Part shown: in pieces, positions 25,828-30,430 of the stretch
Numbering within the stretch: position 1 is the first letter of the stretch
Layout: the number at the start of each line of letters is the position of its first letter
From: an uncultured SAR86 cluster bacterium
GTDB lineage: Bacteria; Pseudomonadota; Gammaproteobacteria; Magnimaribacterales; D2472
NCBI GenBank assembly: GCA_902538705.1
Contig: CACBGD010000007.1
Location: 1-40,335, forward strand
DNA: 40,335 nucleotides
Direction: 5' to 3'
The notes under the pieces: model-generated
Told to the model about the DNA's origin: nothing
Database searches by the model: none
What the model saw: only the letters and a program-made list of their open reading frames with translations
Position numbers and translations under genes: made by a program

Positions 25828-28746
25828 TTAAAAGTCAATACCAAAACTTACTCCATAAGTTCTTGGGAAACCAATGGTAGCATTTAGAACACTTCCTTCA
25901 ACTTCAGAACCTCTATCGATACCAATAAGAGGTCTCTTGTTAGCTAGGTTTTTACCATAAACACCAACATACCAGTCACCATTATTAGGACGATAAGTAG
26001 TTATTAAGTCAAAGTATCTTTGCTCAGGTACGCTCGATCTTTCAGTATTGAATAAACTTGCATACATCTGACCTTTGTGTGCCATTGTTAGTCTTGAATC
26101 AACAACACCATTTGCAGTAGTAAATGCTTGATTAAGAGAGATATTATAATCAAGCTCTCTTGTAGCAGGCATTCTATTTCCACTTAGATCTTGTCTAACC
26201 ACTTGAGCAAAACCTGGATTACCAATAATCGCAGGATTCACTACAAATACACCTTGACACTTGGCAACTAGTCCTTCTGTGAATAGACCCCAGTTACAGA
26301 ATGGTGTCTGAACTCCAGCTGCAGCTAGACCACTATATAATGCTGCTGCTGTAGCTTGTCCAGCAGGAAGACTACCAAGAGCGTTTGCAAAGAAAAGTCC
26401 AAGACCTTCTTCATCAGTAAATAATGCTAGAGGTGTTCCACTTGAAAGAGCAAATGGGTTAGCAGGATCATATAGATTCTCATCACCAATCTCTGAATCA
26501 AGTGCAAAAACATTAATATCTAAAGATGTATTCTCACCTAGAAGATATCTTGATTGAATTTCAAGACCAGTATGAGTGTAATCAATAGTATTAGTAATAG
26601 CACTCGTACCATAGATCATTGAATTATGACCGTCATCTTGAGTATGCTGGAAGAGAGTAGCATTTAACAATACTCTTCCACCTGCAAGTGTACTTCTAAG
26701 ACCAAACTCAATATTTGTTCCATCTGTTGCATCGTAAGGAAGGACATCTCCACTTTCATTTGGTGAATTACCTCCGGGCTTATTACCAGTTGAAACAAGT
26801 CCATATACCATTACATCATCAGAAAGATTTTTTTGAATTGCTAATTTTCCAGTTACGGCATCATTACTTTGTGTTCCATCAGCATAACCACAATCTGTTG
26901 ATCTTATAAAAGCACCACCAGCGGCTCTTGAACATGCTGCCGCCAATGCTCCACCTGCAGTCGCATCACCAAGAGTGTTTAACAACATAAAATAGTTACT
27001 GTTCTCATCGTATCTGAGACCAGCTGTAAGCTTAGTTGTATCGTTTAATTCATAATAAACTTCACCAAAGAATGATGTACTTTCTTGGTTTCCATGTTCT
27101 GAATTAATAAGACCTCTTAACTCATTTGGAAGAATACTTTGCATGTAACCTGGACCAAAAGGATTTGGCACAGGACCATCTGCAGTTAGCGTTAATCCAT
27201 TTGCATTAAGAAAGTTTATATTACCAACAATGGAACCAACAAGTTGATCAAGTGTTATTTGACCACCAAGAAAACTTGGAAGACCAGCTTGAACTAATGC
27301 GCCGAGAGTTCCCCAAAAAGAAACACCACCATATCCATCAAGTTGACCACCAAAAAGGGACTGACTATATGGATGCATTCTAAAGTCACCATTCATGACA
27401 TACCCTTCAGTTTGAACTTGATAGTCATTTGCGTATTTGCTTTCGTAACGATATGCGCCTAATGTGTAGTTCAGAGGACCGTCGTTATCTGAAATCCAAT
27501 TTACCTCAATTTGAGTCGTATCCTCATCTGCTGATGAACACTCAACATTAGTAGGAGCACCTCTTGTTTGGGTTCCCCAACAATCATACTCAAGATCAGC
27601 TGTAAAAGGTCCAAGTAGACCACTTAACGCATTAGAGAAAGCGGTTTGACCAGAAATCTGCTTATCATTATCGTCTATGTGATTGTAGTCTCTTACACTA
27701 TAAGAAGCTTTAACTTTTAAATCTCCATTTTCTCTTGCATTAATCCATTCAATAGTTGAGAACTTTAATAGCTGACTTCTTGCAGGATCTAGATCCAAAT
27801 AAATTTCATTATAATCATCTGATGATAACGCACCAGCATAGGAATCATAAAGCTTGTCTGGTTGCATAAATGTAAGTACAGCAAATCCAGCAGCAAGTGT
27901 TCCAGCTGGATGTGCTCCTGTATTGTAAGCACCTCTCACTGTTGGATCACAACCTAAAAATACTTCTCTATTACAAAATCTACTAGCCCAATTTAATCTT
28001 GAATCTTCAAATTCATGCTCTTCATGAGTTATTTGAATTGTATTAGATGCATCAACATCTACGTCAAGAGACATCCTGAATGATTCAGCATCTCTATTAT
28101 CAATCTCAGTTCCAAGATTTAAGTTTTTAATTGTTCCATCTTGAACATATGAACTGTATGCAACACGGGCTGCAACATTACTAGCCATAGGAATATTAAT
28201 AGCTGAACGAATTCTTGTTTGACCAAAATTTCCATAATCCATTTTTGCATAACCAGAGGAATCTCCTGTTGGTCTAGCAGTTATAAGATTTATTTGTCCA
28301 CCAGTAACATTTCTTCCATATAGAGTTCCCTGAGGTCCTGCAAGGATTTCAATCCTTTCAGCATCCAAAAACCCAATATCACCAAATGCAGAAGCAGTAA
28401 CAACATGGCCATTAATTGCTGTTTGTGTAGAAGCAGTACTTGAAGCACCAATAGCCTCAGTAGCAGCACCTCTTACAGCGATAAAATAACCAGAACCAAT
28501 TGCAGGTGCAAAAGAAATTCCAGGTGTTAGTTCACCAAGGTCATACATTTCAGTAACCTGAGCTGCATCAAGGTCTTCCGAAGTAAGAGCCTGAGCAGAT
28601 AGAGCAACATCTTGTAGTGATTCTTCTCTCCTGGTAGCAGTAACAACAACTTCCTCAACTTCTACTTCTTGAGCAGTGACGTCATTAAAGCTTGTAAATA
28701 TAGCTGTCGCCAGAAAAGCGAAGGCTATTCTTTTAAAATTATCCAT
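25828..28746 (-). CDS. TonB-dependent receptor (972 residues)
   Basis: Outer-membrane importer. Signal peptide to about residue 25 (FNDVTAQE), TonB box VEEVVVTATRRE, plug with VALSAQALT, GPQGTLYGRNVTGGQINLITARP, then a barrel ending FGIDF. It is longer than the usual 750-800 residues; the extra length lies in extracellular-loop-like segments rich in Ala/Gly and several Cys pairs (around 230-245 and 390-410, also near 605-620 and 820-830), which may form loop disulfides. SD AAGGGGGA stands eight bases before the ATG. The 134-base divergent region to the nitroreductase gene holds a plausible promoter (TTGGAT, 16 bases, TATATT on the minus strand). Ligand unknown. Confidence 0.92.
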   Translation of the reverse strand: MDNFKRIAFAFLATAIFTSFNDVTAQEVEVEEVVVTATRREESLQDVALSAQALTSEDLDAAQVTEMYDLGELTPGISFAPAIGSGYFIAVRGAATEAIGASSTASTQTAINGHVVTASAFGDIGFLDAERIEILAGPQGTLYGRNVTGGQINLITARPTGDSSGYAKMDYGNFGQTRIRSAINIPMASNVAARVAYSSYVQDGTIKNLNLGTEIDNRDAESFRMSLDVDVDASNTIQITHEEHEFEDSRLNWASRFCNREVFLGCDPTVRGAYNTGAHPAGTLAAGFAVLTFMQPDKLYDSYAGALSSDDYNEIYLDLDPARSQLLKFSTIEWINARENGDLKVKASYSVRDYNHIDDNDKQISGQTAFSNALSGLLGPFTADLEYDCWGTQTRGAPTNVECSSADEDTTQIEVNWISDNDGPLNYTLGAYRYESKYANDYQVQTEGYVMNGDFRMHPYSQSLFGGQLDGYGGVSFWGTLGALVQAGLPSFLGGQITLDQLVGSIVGNINFLNANGLTLTADGPVPNPFGPGYMQSILPNELRGLINSEHGNQESTSFFGEVYYELNDTTKLTAGLRYDENSNYFMLLNTLGDATAGGALAAACSRAAGGAFIRSTDCGYADGTQSNDAVTGKLAIQKNLSDDVMVYGLVSTGNKPGGNSPNESGDVLPYDATDGTNIEFGLRSTLAGGRVLLNATLFQHTQDDGHNSMIYGTSAITNTIDYTHTGLEIQSRYLLGENTSLDINVFALDSEIGDENLYDPANPFALSSGTPLALFTDEEGLGLFFANALGSLPAGQATAAALYSGLAAAGVQTPFCNWGLFTEGLVAKCQGVFVVNPAIIGNPGFAQVVRQDLSGNRMPATRELDYNISLNQAFTTANGVVDSRLTMAHKGQMYASLFNTERSSVPEQRYFDLITTYRPNNGDWYVGVYGKNLANKRPLIGIDRGSEVEGSVLNATIGFPRTYGVSFGIDF

Positions 28747-29543: not shown

Positions 29544-29595
29544 GAGCTAATCATTAAGAATTGTCAAGTATAAACTTTTATAATTTTCATAAAAT

Positions 29596-29624
29596 TTGAA
29601 TTTACTCTAAGTATTGGATATATT
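29596..29624 (+). promoter_or_regulatory. Predicted proteorhodopsin promoter
   Basis: TTGAAT (29596-29601) and TATATT (29619-29624) with the ideal 17-base spacer. Transcription would begin near 29631, giving an 85-base leader that contains the hairpin, the short upstream frame and the palindrome listed separately. Confidence 0.5.
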
Positions 29625-29636
29625 TAATTCGTTATT

Positions 29637-29665
29637 CTCAAATTGGATTACTCATTTGAGTTTTT
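29637..29665 (+). promoter_or_regulatory. Leader hairpin followed by a T run
   Basis: CTCAAAT (29637-29643) pairs with ATTTGAG (29654-29660) across a 10-base loop and is followed by TTTTT. It resembles a weak terminator or attenuator. Because the predicted promoter lies upstream, it would be near the 5' end of the rhodopsin mRNA; alternatively it ends the nitroreductase transcript. Confidence 0.4.
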
Positions 29666-29678
29666 CAGTGGGGGGACA

Positions 29679-29699
29679 ATGTTGAAATTTCAATATTAA
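29679..29699 (+). other. Six-codon upstream frame (MLKFQY) before proteorhodopsin
   Basis: ATG-TTG-AAA-TTT-CAA-TAT-TAA, preceded by an SD-like GGGGGGA five bases upstream that is as strong as those of the receptor genes in this window. It is out of frame with the rhodopsin (offset 38 bases) and stops 17 bases before its ATG. It contains the perfect 12-base palindrome TTGAAATTTCAA (29682-29693). Leader peptide or remnant of a lost signal-peptide start; translation is not proven. Confidence 0.3.
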
Positions 29700-29716
29700 A
29701 CTTAGAGGAGGTTTAA

Positions 29717-30385
29717 ATGGAATACTCACTAGCACAAGACGACTTTGTCGGTATTTCTTTTTGGCTTGCTACAGCAATTATGCTTGCTTCTACTGTTTTC
29801 TTTCTTGCTGAAAGGGACAATGTAAGAGGTAAGTGGAAAACTTCATTGACTGTTGCTGCTTTAGTTACAGGTGTTGCTTTCTGGCATTATCTATACATGA
29901 GAGGTGTATGGATTACTACTGGAGATTCACCAACTGTATACAGATATATTGACTGGTTGATTACTGTTCCACTTCAAATAGTGGAGTTCTACCTCATCCT
30001 AGCAGCTGTTACTAGTGTAAGTGGAAGCTTATTCTGGAAACTGCTTGTTGGTTCACTGGTTATGTTAGTCGGTGGATATATGGGTGAAGCCGGATACATG
30101 GCAAAAATGCCTGCATTCGTCATTGGTATGATCGGTTGGGCTTACATTATCTACTTAATTTTCTTTGGCGAAGCAGCCAACGTAAATGCTTCAAGTGGTA
30201 ATGCAGCTAGCCAATACGCTTTCAAAGCAATCAGAATGATTGTTCTTGTTGGCTGGGCTATTTATCCTATCGGTTATCTAATGGGTAGTTCTGAAGCTCT
30301 CAACATTATCTATAACTTAGCAGATTTAGTTAATAAAACTGCTTTTGGTGTGGTAATTTGGGCAGCTGCAGTATCAGACTCTTAA
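29717..30385 (+). CDS. Proteorhodopsin, blue-absorbing type, light-driven proton pump
   Basis: Seven-helix retinal protein pumping protons out across the inner membrane. Landmarks, numbered here with the classic proteorhodopsin number in brackets: His57 (75), acceptor Asp79 (97) in RYIDWL, Gln87 (105) in TVPLQIVEF, donor Glu90 (108), and Schiff-base Lys207 (231) in LADLVNKTAFG. Gln at 105 means blue tuning, expected for clear open-ocean water. The carboxyl pair Asp/Glu supports pumping, not sensing. The 222 residues start without the cleavable signal peptide usual in the family; AGGAGG five bases before the ATG makes this start secure. Nearby genes include no retinal or carotenoid synthesis enzymes. 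Confidence 0.98.
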   Translation: MEYSLAQDDFVGISFWLATAIMLASTVFFLAERDNVRGKWKTSLTVAALVTGVAFWHYLYMRGVWITTGDSPTVYRYIDWLITVPLQIVEFYLILAAVTSVSGSLFWKLLVGSLVMLVGGYMGEAGYMAKMPAFVIGMIGWAYIIYLIFFGEAANVNASSGNAASQYAFKAIRMIVLVGWAIYPIGYLMGSSEALNIIYNLADLVNKTAFGVVIWAAAVSDS

Positions 30386-30398
30386 TAGTAGATTTCTG

Positions 30399-30430
30399 AA
30401 AAAAAACCCAGGCTAGTCCTGGGTTTTTTT
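30399..30430. terminator. Bidirectional rho-independent terminator
   Basis: CCCAGG / CCTGGG stem with loop CTAGT, flanked by eight A on the left and seven T on the right, so it can end transcription on both strands: proteorhodopsin from the left and the oxidoreductase from the right. The oxidoreductase stop codon overlaps the T run. Confidence 0.9.

Follow-up and report, generated by a model that had tools for sequence, protein, structure and literature searches.

A structured leader at proteorhodopsin genes of the SAR86 cluster as a candidate cis-acting element for translation initiation

Comparison of rhodopsin upstream regions points to a structured 5' leader of the SAR86 proteorhodopsin mRNA at positions 29631-29716 of a 40,335-nucleotide stretch of SAR86 DNA (hereafter the window), which we read, with modest confidence, as a dedicated cis-acting RNA element setting translation initiation. 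As judged by comparison of sequences, this leader has several characteristic features: (i) it is predicted to fold, (ii) it recurs across genera, (iii) it mostly outlasts the exchange of the pump gene that follows it, and (iv) in the forms seen in genus g1, which includes the window, and in genera g8 and g9, it occurs only at rhodopsin genes. SAR86 is a very common ocean bacterium, and proteorhodopsin is a light-driven proton pump and one of the major routes by which light is captured in the sea; phototrophy based on rhodopsins brings a large amount of energy into the surface ocean. SAR86 had no reported isolate until 2024 (PMC11582366). With an RNA leader that is specific to the gene and mostly outlasts the exchange of the pump, post-transcriptional control can be tested directly, and the leader is usable as a tag assigning rhodopsin transcripts to SAR86.

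The window is contig 7 of a 1.0-Mb assembly that is 80% complete. Its proteorhodopsin gene (29717-30385, plus strand) starts with ATG at 29717 and encodes 222 aa; it was identified by PF01036 (E 5.6e-45), and its nearest PDB sequences are proteorhodopsins. Residues 83-87 form a TVPLQ motif with glutamine at residue 87; we take this residue to be the spectral-tuning site and glutamine there to denote the blue-absorbing type. The gap upstream of the gene, 173 bases long, accommodates a promoter together with a leader inferred to span about 86 bases. The promoter (29596-29624, plus strand) consists of the -35 hexamer TTGAAT (29596-29601), a 17-base spacer and the -10 hexamer TATATT (29619-29624). 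It matches 9 of 12 consensus letters in a promoter scan, in which promoter-like sites were at chance level (2 found, 3.0 expected in shuffles), and both hexamers are kept at all eight g1 loci, as read from the alignments. Transcription would start near 29631. The Shine-Dalgarno sequence (SD) of the rhodopsin gene, AGGAGG, is located at 29706-29711 on the plus strand; the 3' terminus of the organism's own 16S rRNA reads ...GGATCACCTCC and contains GGCTGGATCACCTCC.

Two further observations concern the surroundings of the gene. Between rhodopsin and the convergent FAD oxidoreductase gene, at 30400-30430, there is a hairpin with perfect CCCAGG/CCTGGG arms and with A and T runs on its flanks, which is likely a two-way terminator and which is missing from the output of the terminator scan. 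The TonB-receptor gene (25828-28746, minus strand) has GGGGGAT directly before its ATG as the apparent SD, the same being found in the relative G008, and G-runs may serve as SDs in the window organism.

Every element named in a preliminary description of this leader was recovered at its place by a sequence check, with CTCAAAT at 29637-29643 and ATTTGAG at 29654-29660, followed by T5 at 29661-29665. The upstream hairpin that had been drawn from these two arms is supported in a modified form, as hairpin H1, in which 29642-29653 pair with 29658-29669 (plus strand) and for which covariation was observed in g1; the CTCAAAT/ATTTGAG pairing itself can be written by eye (6-7 pairs, G.U allowed) in only four of eight members of the genus. 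H1 begins about 11 bases past the inferred transcript start. It is closed by UUCUC (29635-29639, plus strand), the proposed partner of GGGGA in the G-tract, in both the minimum-energy fold and the consensus fold, and these letters are invariant in seven of seven sequences. The SD-like G-tract GGGGGGA (29670-29676, plus strand), with a predicted anti-SD pairing of -9.3 kcal/mol, represents the most widely shared letters of the leader. Hairpin H2 (29678-29697, plus strand) pairs 29678-29685 with 29690-29697 and contains TTGAAATTTCAA, a perfect 12-base palindrome at 29682-29693; hairpin and palindrome are invariant at all eight g1 loci. The mini-frame MLKFQY-stop, from ATG to TAA at 29679-29699 on the plus strand, is probably incidental. 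A candidate hairpin H3, UUAAACUU/AGGUUUAA (29696-29716, plus strand), whose loop holds part of the SD, is invariant and was obtained from the consensus fold only.

The RNA spanning 29632-29740 folds better than all 200 of its shuffles (z -3.46), and the g1 relatives divide between two alternative minimum-energy folds. Single-sequence folding was nevertheless dropped as proof, because leaders of other genes fold equally well: in a standard segment of 90 bases the three sample rhodopsin leaders rank 9, 16 and 21 of 168 leaders by z. Most genes here had been described as having almost no leader; by a crude gene call, 168 of 384 genes in the sample have at least 85 bases free upstream. A consensus helix between CGUU and the start codon was discarded, since a transcript beginning at the inferred start would lack its C.

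Rhodopsin is present in eight of ten g1 genomes. Alignment with these relatives, the check that the preliminary description had proposed and on which its reading was to stand or fall, revealed a block of G-tract, H2, SD and ATG common to all eight loci. The most distant g1 locus, with a rhodopsin 85-87% identical, has small changes, all of them outside H2. For near relatives, identity of the leaders over 60 gapped bases is 0.95, 0.90 and 0.90, compared with a median of 0.92 for 48 orthologue pairs, and over 46 ungapped bases it is 1.00, compared with 0.93. Near-relative conservation was dropped as proof, such identity being typical for leaders of the genus, and 80 further leaders of the family were therefore brought in.

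The resulting family set comprises 88 leaders among the 98 matches listed, eight from g1 and 80 others. The succession of a GGGG(G)A tract, a short hairpin, and then SD and ATG was found in 76 of the 88 rhodopsin leaders and in six of ten genera (g1, g4, g6, g7, g8 and g9). The 12 tract-less leaders belong to g2 (one), g3 (two), g5 (four), g10 (one) and g4 (three), the last one being that of a second rhodopsin in g8. The three from g4 are a leader cut by a contig end, one with GGAGGA and one with a different hairpin; L131 (GGAGGA) and L136, two of the six replaced g4 genes described below, are among the 12. At the position of H2, hairpins of other sequence were observed in g4, g6, g8 and g9. 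The tract of g4 and g6 pairs with letters upstream of it and is followed by an A+T hairpin of different sequence; among the distinct g4 leaders, 7 of 17 have a mismatch in the G-tract helix. In g8 and g9, the last letters of the tract form one arm of the hairpin, GGAGUAA/UUACUCC. The g1 rhodopsin gene occupies another locus, because none of its neighbours in the window was found in the 1.5-3 kb flanks of the other SAR86 genera compared. Despite the different locus, the order of tract, hairpin and SD in g1 is the same as in the other genera, which may reflect either descent or convergence.

Compensatory changes were observed in two forms of the leader. Among seven g1 sequences, both sides are changed in three pairs of H1 and a single side in seven others; the covariation score of H1 was matched by 4 of 500 shuffles and was lower in all six slid versions of the helix, and its pair-type count is not unusual (121 of 500 shuffles). 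H2 and the UUCUC/GGGGA pairing give no covariation signal in g1, because their letters are invariant there. A covariance model built on six g8 leaders finds 45 of 47 g7-g9 loci at E <= 0.01, the two missed being L139 (a second rhodopsin) and L171 (the g7 leader), and these 45 matches constitute the alignment A7. Among its 30 distinct rows, there is for each of the seven pairs of the g8/g9 hairpin one row or more with both sides changed, and none of 500 shuffles is as good on any of five measures, in an alignment that was fitted to the model and hence favours structure. A looser earlier alignment, A4 (51 matches to E 0.75, including g3, g4 and g7 rows and two matches on the opposite strand), gave the same covariation outcome. 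Single hairpins compared with their own per-sequence shuffles yielded mostly weak P values, because the stems are short and A+T-rich. Of the features expected of a cis-acting structured leader, a fixed position upstream of one gene class was found with the g1 and g8/g9 models, and compensatory pair changes were found in H1 of g1 and in the g8/g9 hairpin.

The specificity of the leader for rhodopsin genes was assessed with two models covering the g1 and g8/g9 forms, both run with filters strict enough for weak matches to be lost. Model R1 (g8), searched in 107 family genomes, gave 46 matches at E <= 0.005, each directly preceding a rhodopsin gene; another 12 matches, weaker and up to E 0.1, include two at rhodopsin, and since about 11 false matches are expected there, this is the chance level. 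Model R2 (g1) found the rhodopsin leader in the eight rhodopsin-bearing g1 genomes at E <= 6e-13 with no other match in g1, and elsewhere gave only four matches, at E 0.03-0.07, in g4, g8 and g9. The plain leader pattern has one match in the window organism's own genome, at the rhodopsin leader; its matches in most of the 107 family genomes look coding by their letters, and the own-genome count alone was used. In a g1 sample of 170 leaders, eight have an upstream tract with a predicted anti-SD pairing of <= -9 kcal/mol, and only in the three rhodopsin leaders does the SD also reach <= -9 kcal/mol. No Rfam 15 family matched the window at or above its curated threshold: the best match in 29560-29760 was MIR828 on the minus strand (17.5 bits, threshold 69), and the eight related loci gave tRNAs only.

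Replacement of the pump was observed in g4. In a tree of 37 sampled rhodopsins (without g7 or g9 rows), the SAR86 family splits: one clade (100/100) unites rows from g4 (three), g6 (two) and g8 (five), a further pair of g4 rows, G014 and G018, groups with a Hyphomicrobiales rhodopsin (100/98), and g1 joins Woeseiaceae/MED-G80 (98/96). The two types of g4 rhodopsins are 59-61% identical, and their loci share flanking genes that are 70-90% identical, as seen on either side of the gene in G014 and G021 and on the single side available in G018. The second type was assigned in six g4 genomes, three by sequence comparison and three by the protein start only. Across the types, identity of the g4 leaders is 0.76 (12 x 6 leaders, including L136, L126, L128 and L191) and 0.80 without L136, whose leader differs from the other g4 leaders, compared with 0.62 in the first 60 coding bases, 0.69 at -120 to -61, and 0.52 for unrelated leaders. 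Given the same flanks, the divergent rhodopsins and the higher identity of the leaders, the pump was therefore replaced in place and the leader mostly kept, a recognisable leader being present in five of the six replaced genes (in one of the five with GGAGGA as the tract). Since the leader is kept even behind a swapped pump, it probably controls how the pump is made. Side by side, L090 and the g4 loci L108, L109 and L110 display the coding sequence swapped for the distant type between conserved flanks.

We propose the following mechanism. The G-tract GGGG(G)A(G) would mimic the SD, and a pyrimidine strand of the leader could pair either with the tract or with the real SD. As long as the G-tract and H2 hold the competing strands, the SD and the start codon would be open; with this pairing lost, both would be masked. 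The outcome would be high, insulated translation, with control possible by anything that shifts the balance.

Predicted pairing and accessibility bear on this mechanism differently in different genera. In g4, g6, g7, g8 and g9, 58 of 62 distinct leaders have a tract whose predicted pairing with the anti-SD equals or exceeds that of the true SD; in g1, where the true SD is very strong (mean -12.45), it pairs better than the tract in eight of eight. Genus means for the tract range from -8.9 to -10.1 kcal/mol for predicted anti-SD pairing and from 0.22 to 0.56 for the unpaired fraction in predicted folds. When the tract was changed to A in silico, predicted SD accessibility fell by 0.37 from 0.43 in g8 (1 of 209 other blocks as low), by 0.17 in g9 (10 of 99) and by 0.10 in the single g7 leader (none of eight); it was unchanged in g1 (-0.02; 43 of 120 other blocks as much), in g4 (+0.03) and in g6 (-0.02). 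Mutually exclusive SD pairings are predicted clearly in g8, more weakly in g9 and the single g7 leader, and not via the tract in g1, g4 and g6. The tract is probably an SD mimic that occupies the masking strand, as best seen in the modelled folds of g8. Because the change of the tract in g1 has no effect on SD accessibility, the case for the mechanism in this genus rests on H2. Breaking the 5' strand of H2 in the window in silico lowered AUG accessibility from 0.76 to 0.32, and re-pairing restored it (0.97); breaking the 3' strand lowered it only to 0.63. SD accessibility barely moved upon these breaks (0.33-0.42).

Post-transcriptional control of rhodopsin had been suggested in the preliminary description, with attenuation, leader-peptide translation or an operator as possible means. 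The general suggestion has gained a basis in a conserved, covarying RNA structure that is found at one gene and mostly kept on exchange; none of the three means was borne out, and two other explanations compete with the element for initiation that we favour. One of these is a stabiliser of the mRNA, whose stable 5'-end hairpins would guard a very abundant transcript against RNase E-type decay and play no part in initiation. Such a function would suit the closeness of H1 to the inferred start, and hairpin letters that vary while the pairing is kept are what a purely structural role predicts; a Red Sea study placed the SAR11 rhodopsin 10th in its ranking of transcription start sites (PMC5069720). 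We consider a stabiliser rather unlikely, as it leaves unexplained both the widely shared GGGG(G)A letters and the position of the last hairpin right at the SD. The other explanation, that a ligand, a protein, a small RNA or temperature shifts the competition between G-tract and SD, draws on the mutually exclusive pairings predicted in g8, and less clearly in g9 and g7, and on the two alternative folds among the g1 relatives. However, no bulged, letter-conserved pocket of the kind found in known riboswitches was seen in the leader, and temperature scarcely alters predicted SD accessibility. The g1 mean is 0.46 at 15, 25 and 37 C, g8 goes from 0.41 to 0.47 over 15 to 37 C, and the largest predicted rises on warming elsewhere are 0.04 to 0.18 (the single g7 leader) and 0.31 to 0.43 (two g3 leaders); an RNA thermometer is disfavoured because the change is so slight in g1 and small in g8. 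A CsrA/RsmA target was rejected for lack of a CsrA gene in all 13 family genomes searched, most of them incomplete; six of eight other genomes of the order have CsrA. Overall, a signal-responsive switch appears unlikely to us.

The three means named in the preliminary description are far less probable. Control through the peptide MLKFQY could exploit an SD-like tract and an ATG that are invariant at eight of eight g1 loci, but the G-run is only 3 bases away from this ATG, and all letters of the frame are invariant in g1, leaving no readable coding signature. An ATG within 14 bases past the tract occurs in all eight g1 leaders and in only 4 of the 68 other G-tract leaders (g8, 1 of 30; g9, 3 of 15; g4, g6 and g7 together, 0 of 23), another 15 of the 68 having only GTG or TTG there. 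As the mini-frame is thus mostly confined to g1, we regard leader-peptide control as very improbable. We attach equally little credence to a DNA operator at TTGAAATTTCAA: the perfection of the palindrome and its invariance in g1 would suit the binding of a regulator, yet it is located some 50 bases past the inferred start, other genera carry other hairpin letters at this place, and the extended stem needs a G.U pair. Transcription attenuation, to which the T5 behind a hairpin in the window had pointed, is the least credible, since T5 is found in none of the six other rows of the A2 alignment, the stem is A+T-rich and present in half of the genus, and a terminator-like site was scored nowhere in the scan.

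Rhodopsin leaders outside the family were also inspected. In another family of the order (20 loci read), genus g15 has a GGAGAG tract, a UUAAUUUAUAAAUUAA hairpin and GGGAGG, and other palindromes were observed elsewhere. At SAR11 loci L042-L089, about 120 bases upstream of rhodopsin, there is a multi-hairpin leader, in most cases with a third hairpin, GAAAAC/GTTTTC, whose loop contains the SD GAGGGAGG. Among 37 distinct SAR11 leaders, the arms of the upstream hairpin change together in many rows by inspection (ATTCGG/CCGAGT, GCTCGA/TCGAGC, GCTTGG/CTGAGC), in a MAFFT alignment that fails to line up the first hairpin in all subtypes; a hairpin AGUUUA..UAAACU occurs also with G.U. A rhodopsin of a Dehalococcoidia MAG (L030, positions 120-198) is preceded by GAGAGGGTAATTCTAAAAATTACTCT and then GGAGG, close to the design of the g8/g9 hairpin, possibly as a result of transfer, convergence or a binning error. 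It is conceivable, and we hold it as a doubtful conjecture, that a signal-responsive RNA switch controls SAR86 proteorhodopsin translation through competition of a GGGGGAG tract and the SD for a shared strand, that it is kept through pump exchange, and that the analogous multi-hairpin leader of SAR11 arose or was shared.

Inverted repeats were noticed in rhodopsin promoters as well. The repeat TGAGAAT(C/T)ATTCTCA, which we take to be Fur-box-like, is found at the rhodopsin promoter in L181, L184, L186 and L190 of g5 and in L178 and L187 of g9, with one base off in L187 and L190; iron control of rhodopsin is possible in some SAR86 genera. In g8 leaders such as L135, L158 and L162, the -35 and -10 regions form the inverted repeat TTTGATAC(A/C)...(T/G)GTATCAT; its inner letters change in concert in several rows, and it is a possible operator.

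The SAR86 leader belongs to a known kind, the structured cis-acting mRNA leaders, and has neither an Rfam match nor an earlier description that we could find: among the titles and abstract openings listed, the open-licence PMC literature yielded no account of a rhodopsin leader RNA or of rhodopsin regulation in SAR86. The mRNA of E. coli ompA has a 5' stabiliser leader, and the two are alike in having 5'-proximal hairpins on the mRNA of a membrane protein; the SAR86 leader differs by its conserved G-tract, and a stabilising role is putative here. Standby sites of the ribosome are regarded as single-stranded, whereas the SAR86 tract is largely paired in the predicted folds. In structured standby sites (PMC3936740, PMC7708055), as in this leader, hairpins and an SD-like tract precede the true SD. 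The candidate RNA motifs described from Pelagibacter (PMC2704228) are likewise small stem motifs in a marine streamlined genome, but the four motifs of section 10 in that source lie beside other genes, and a term search of its main text found the word rhodopsin zero times. Finally, in switches with an SD, an anti-SD and an anti-anti-SD strand, such as the preQ1 translational riboswitch (PMC9410914), an upstream segment holds the strand that pairs with the SD, as is predicted most clearly for g8. In contrast to such switches, the SAR86 leader is without a recognisable ligand pocket, the upstream partner is a G-tract mimicking the SD, and the leader is found, in the forms tested, only at rhodopsin genes.
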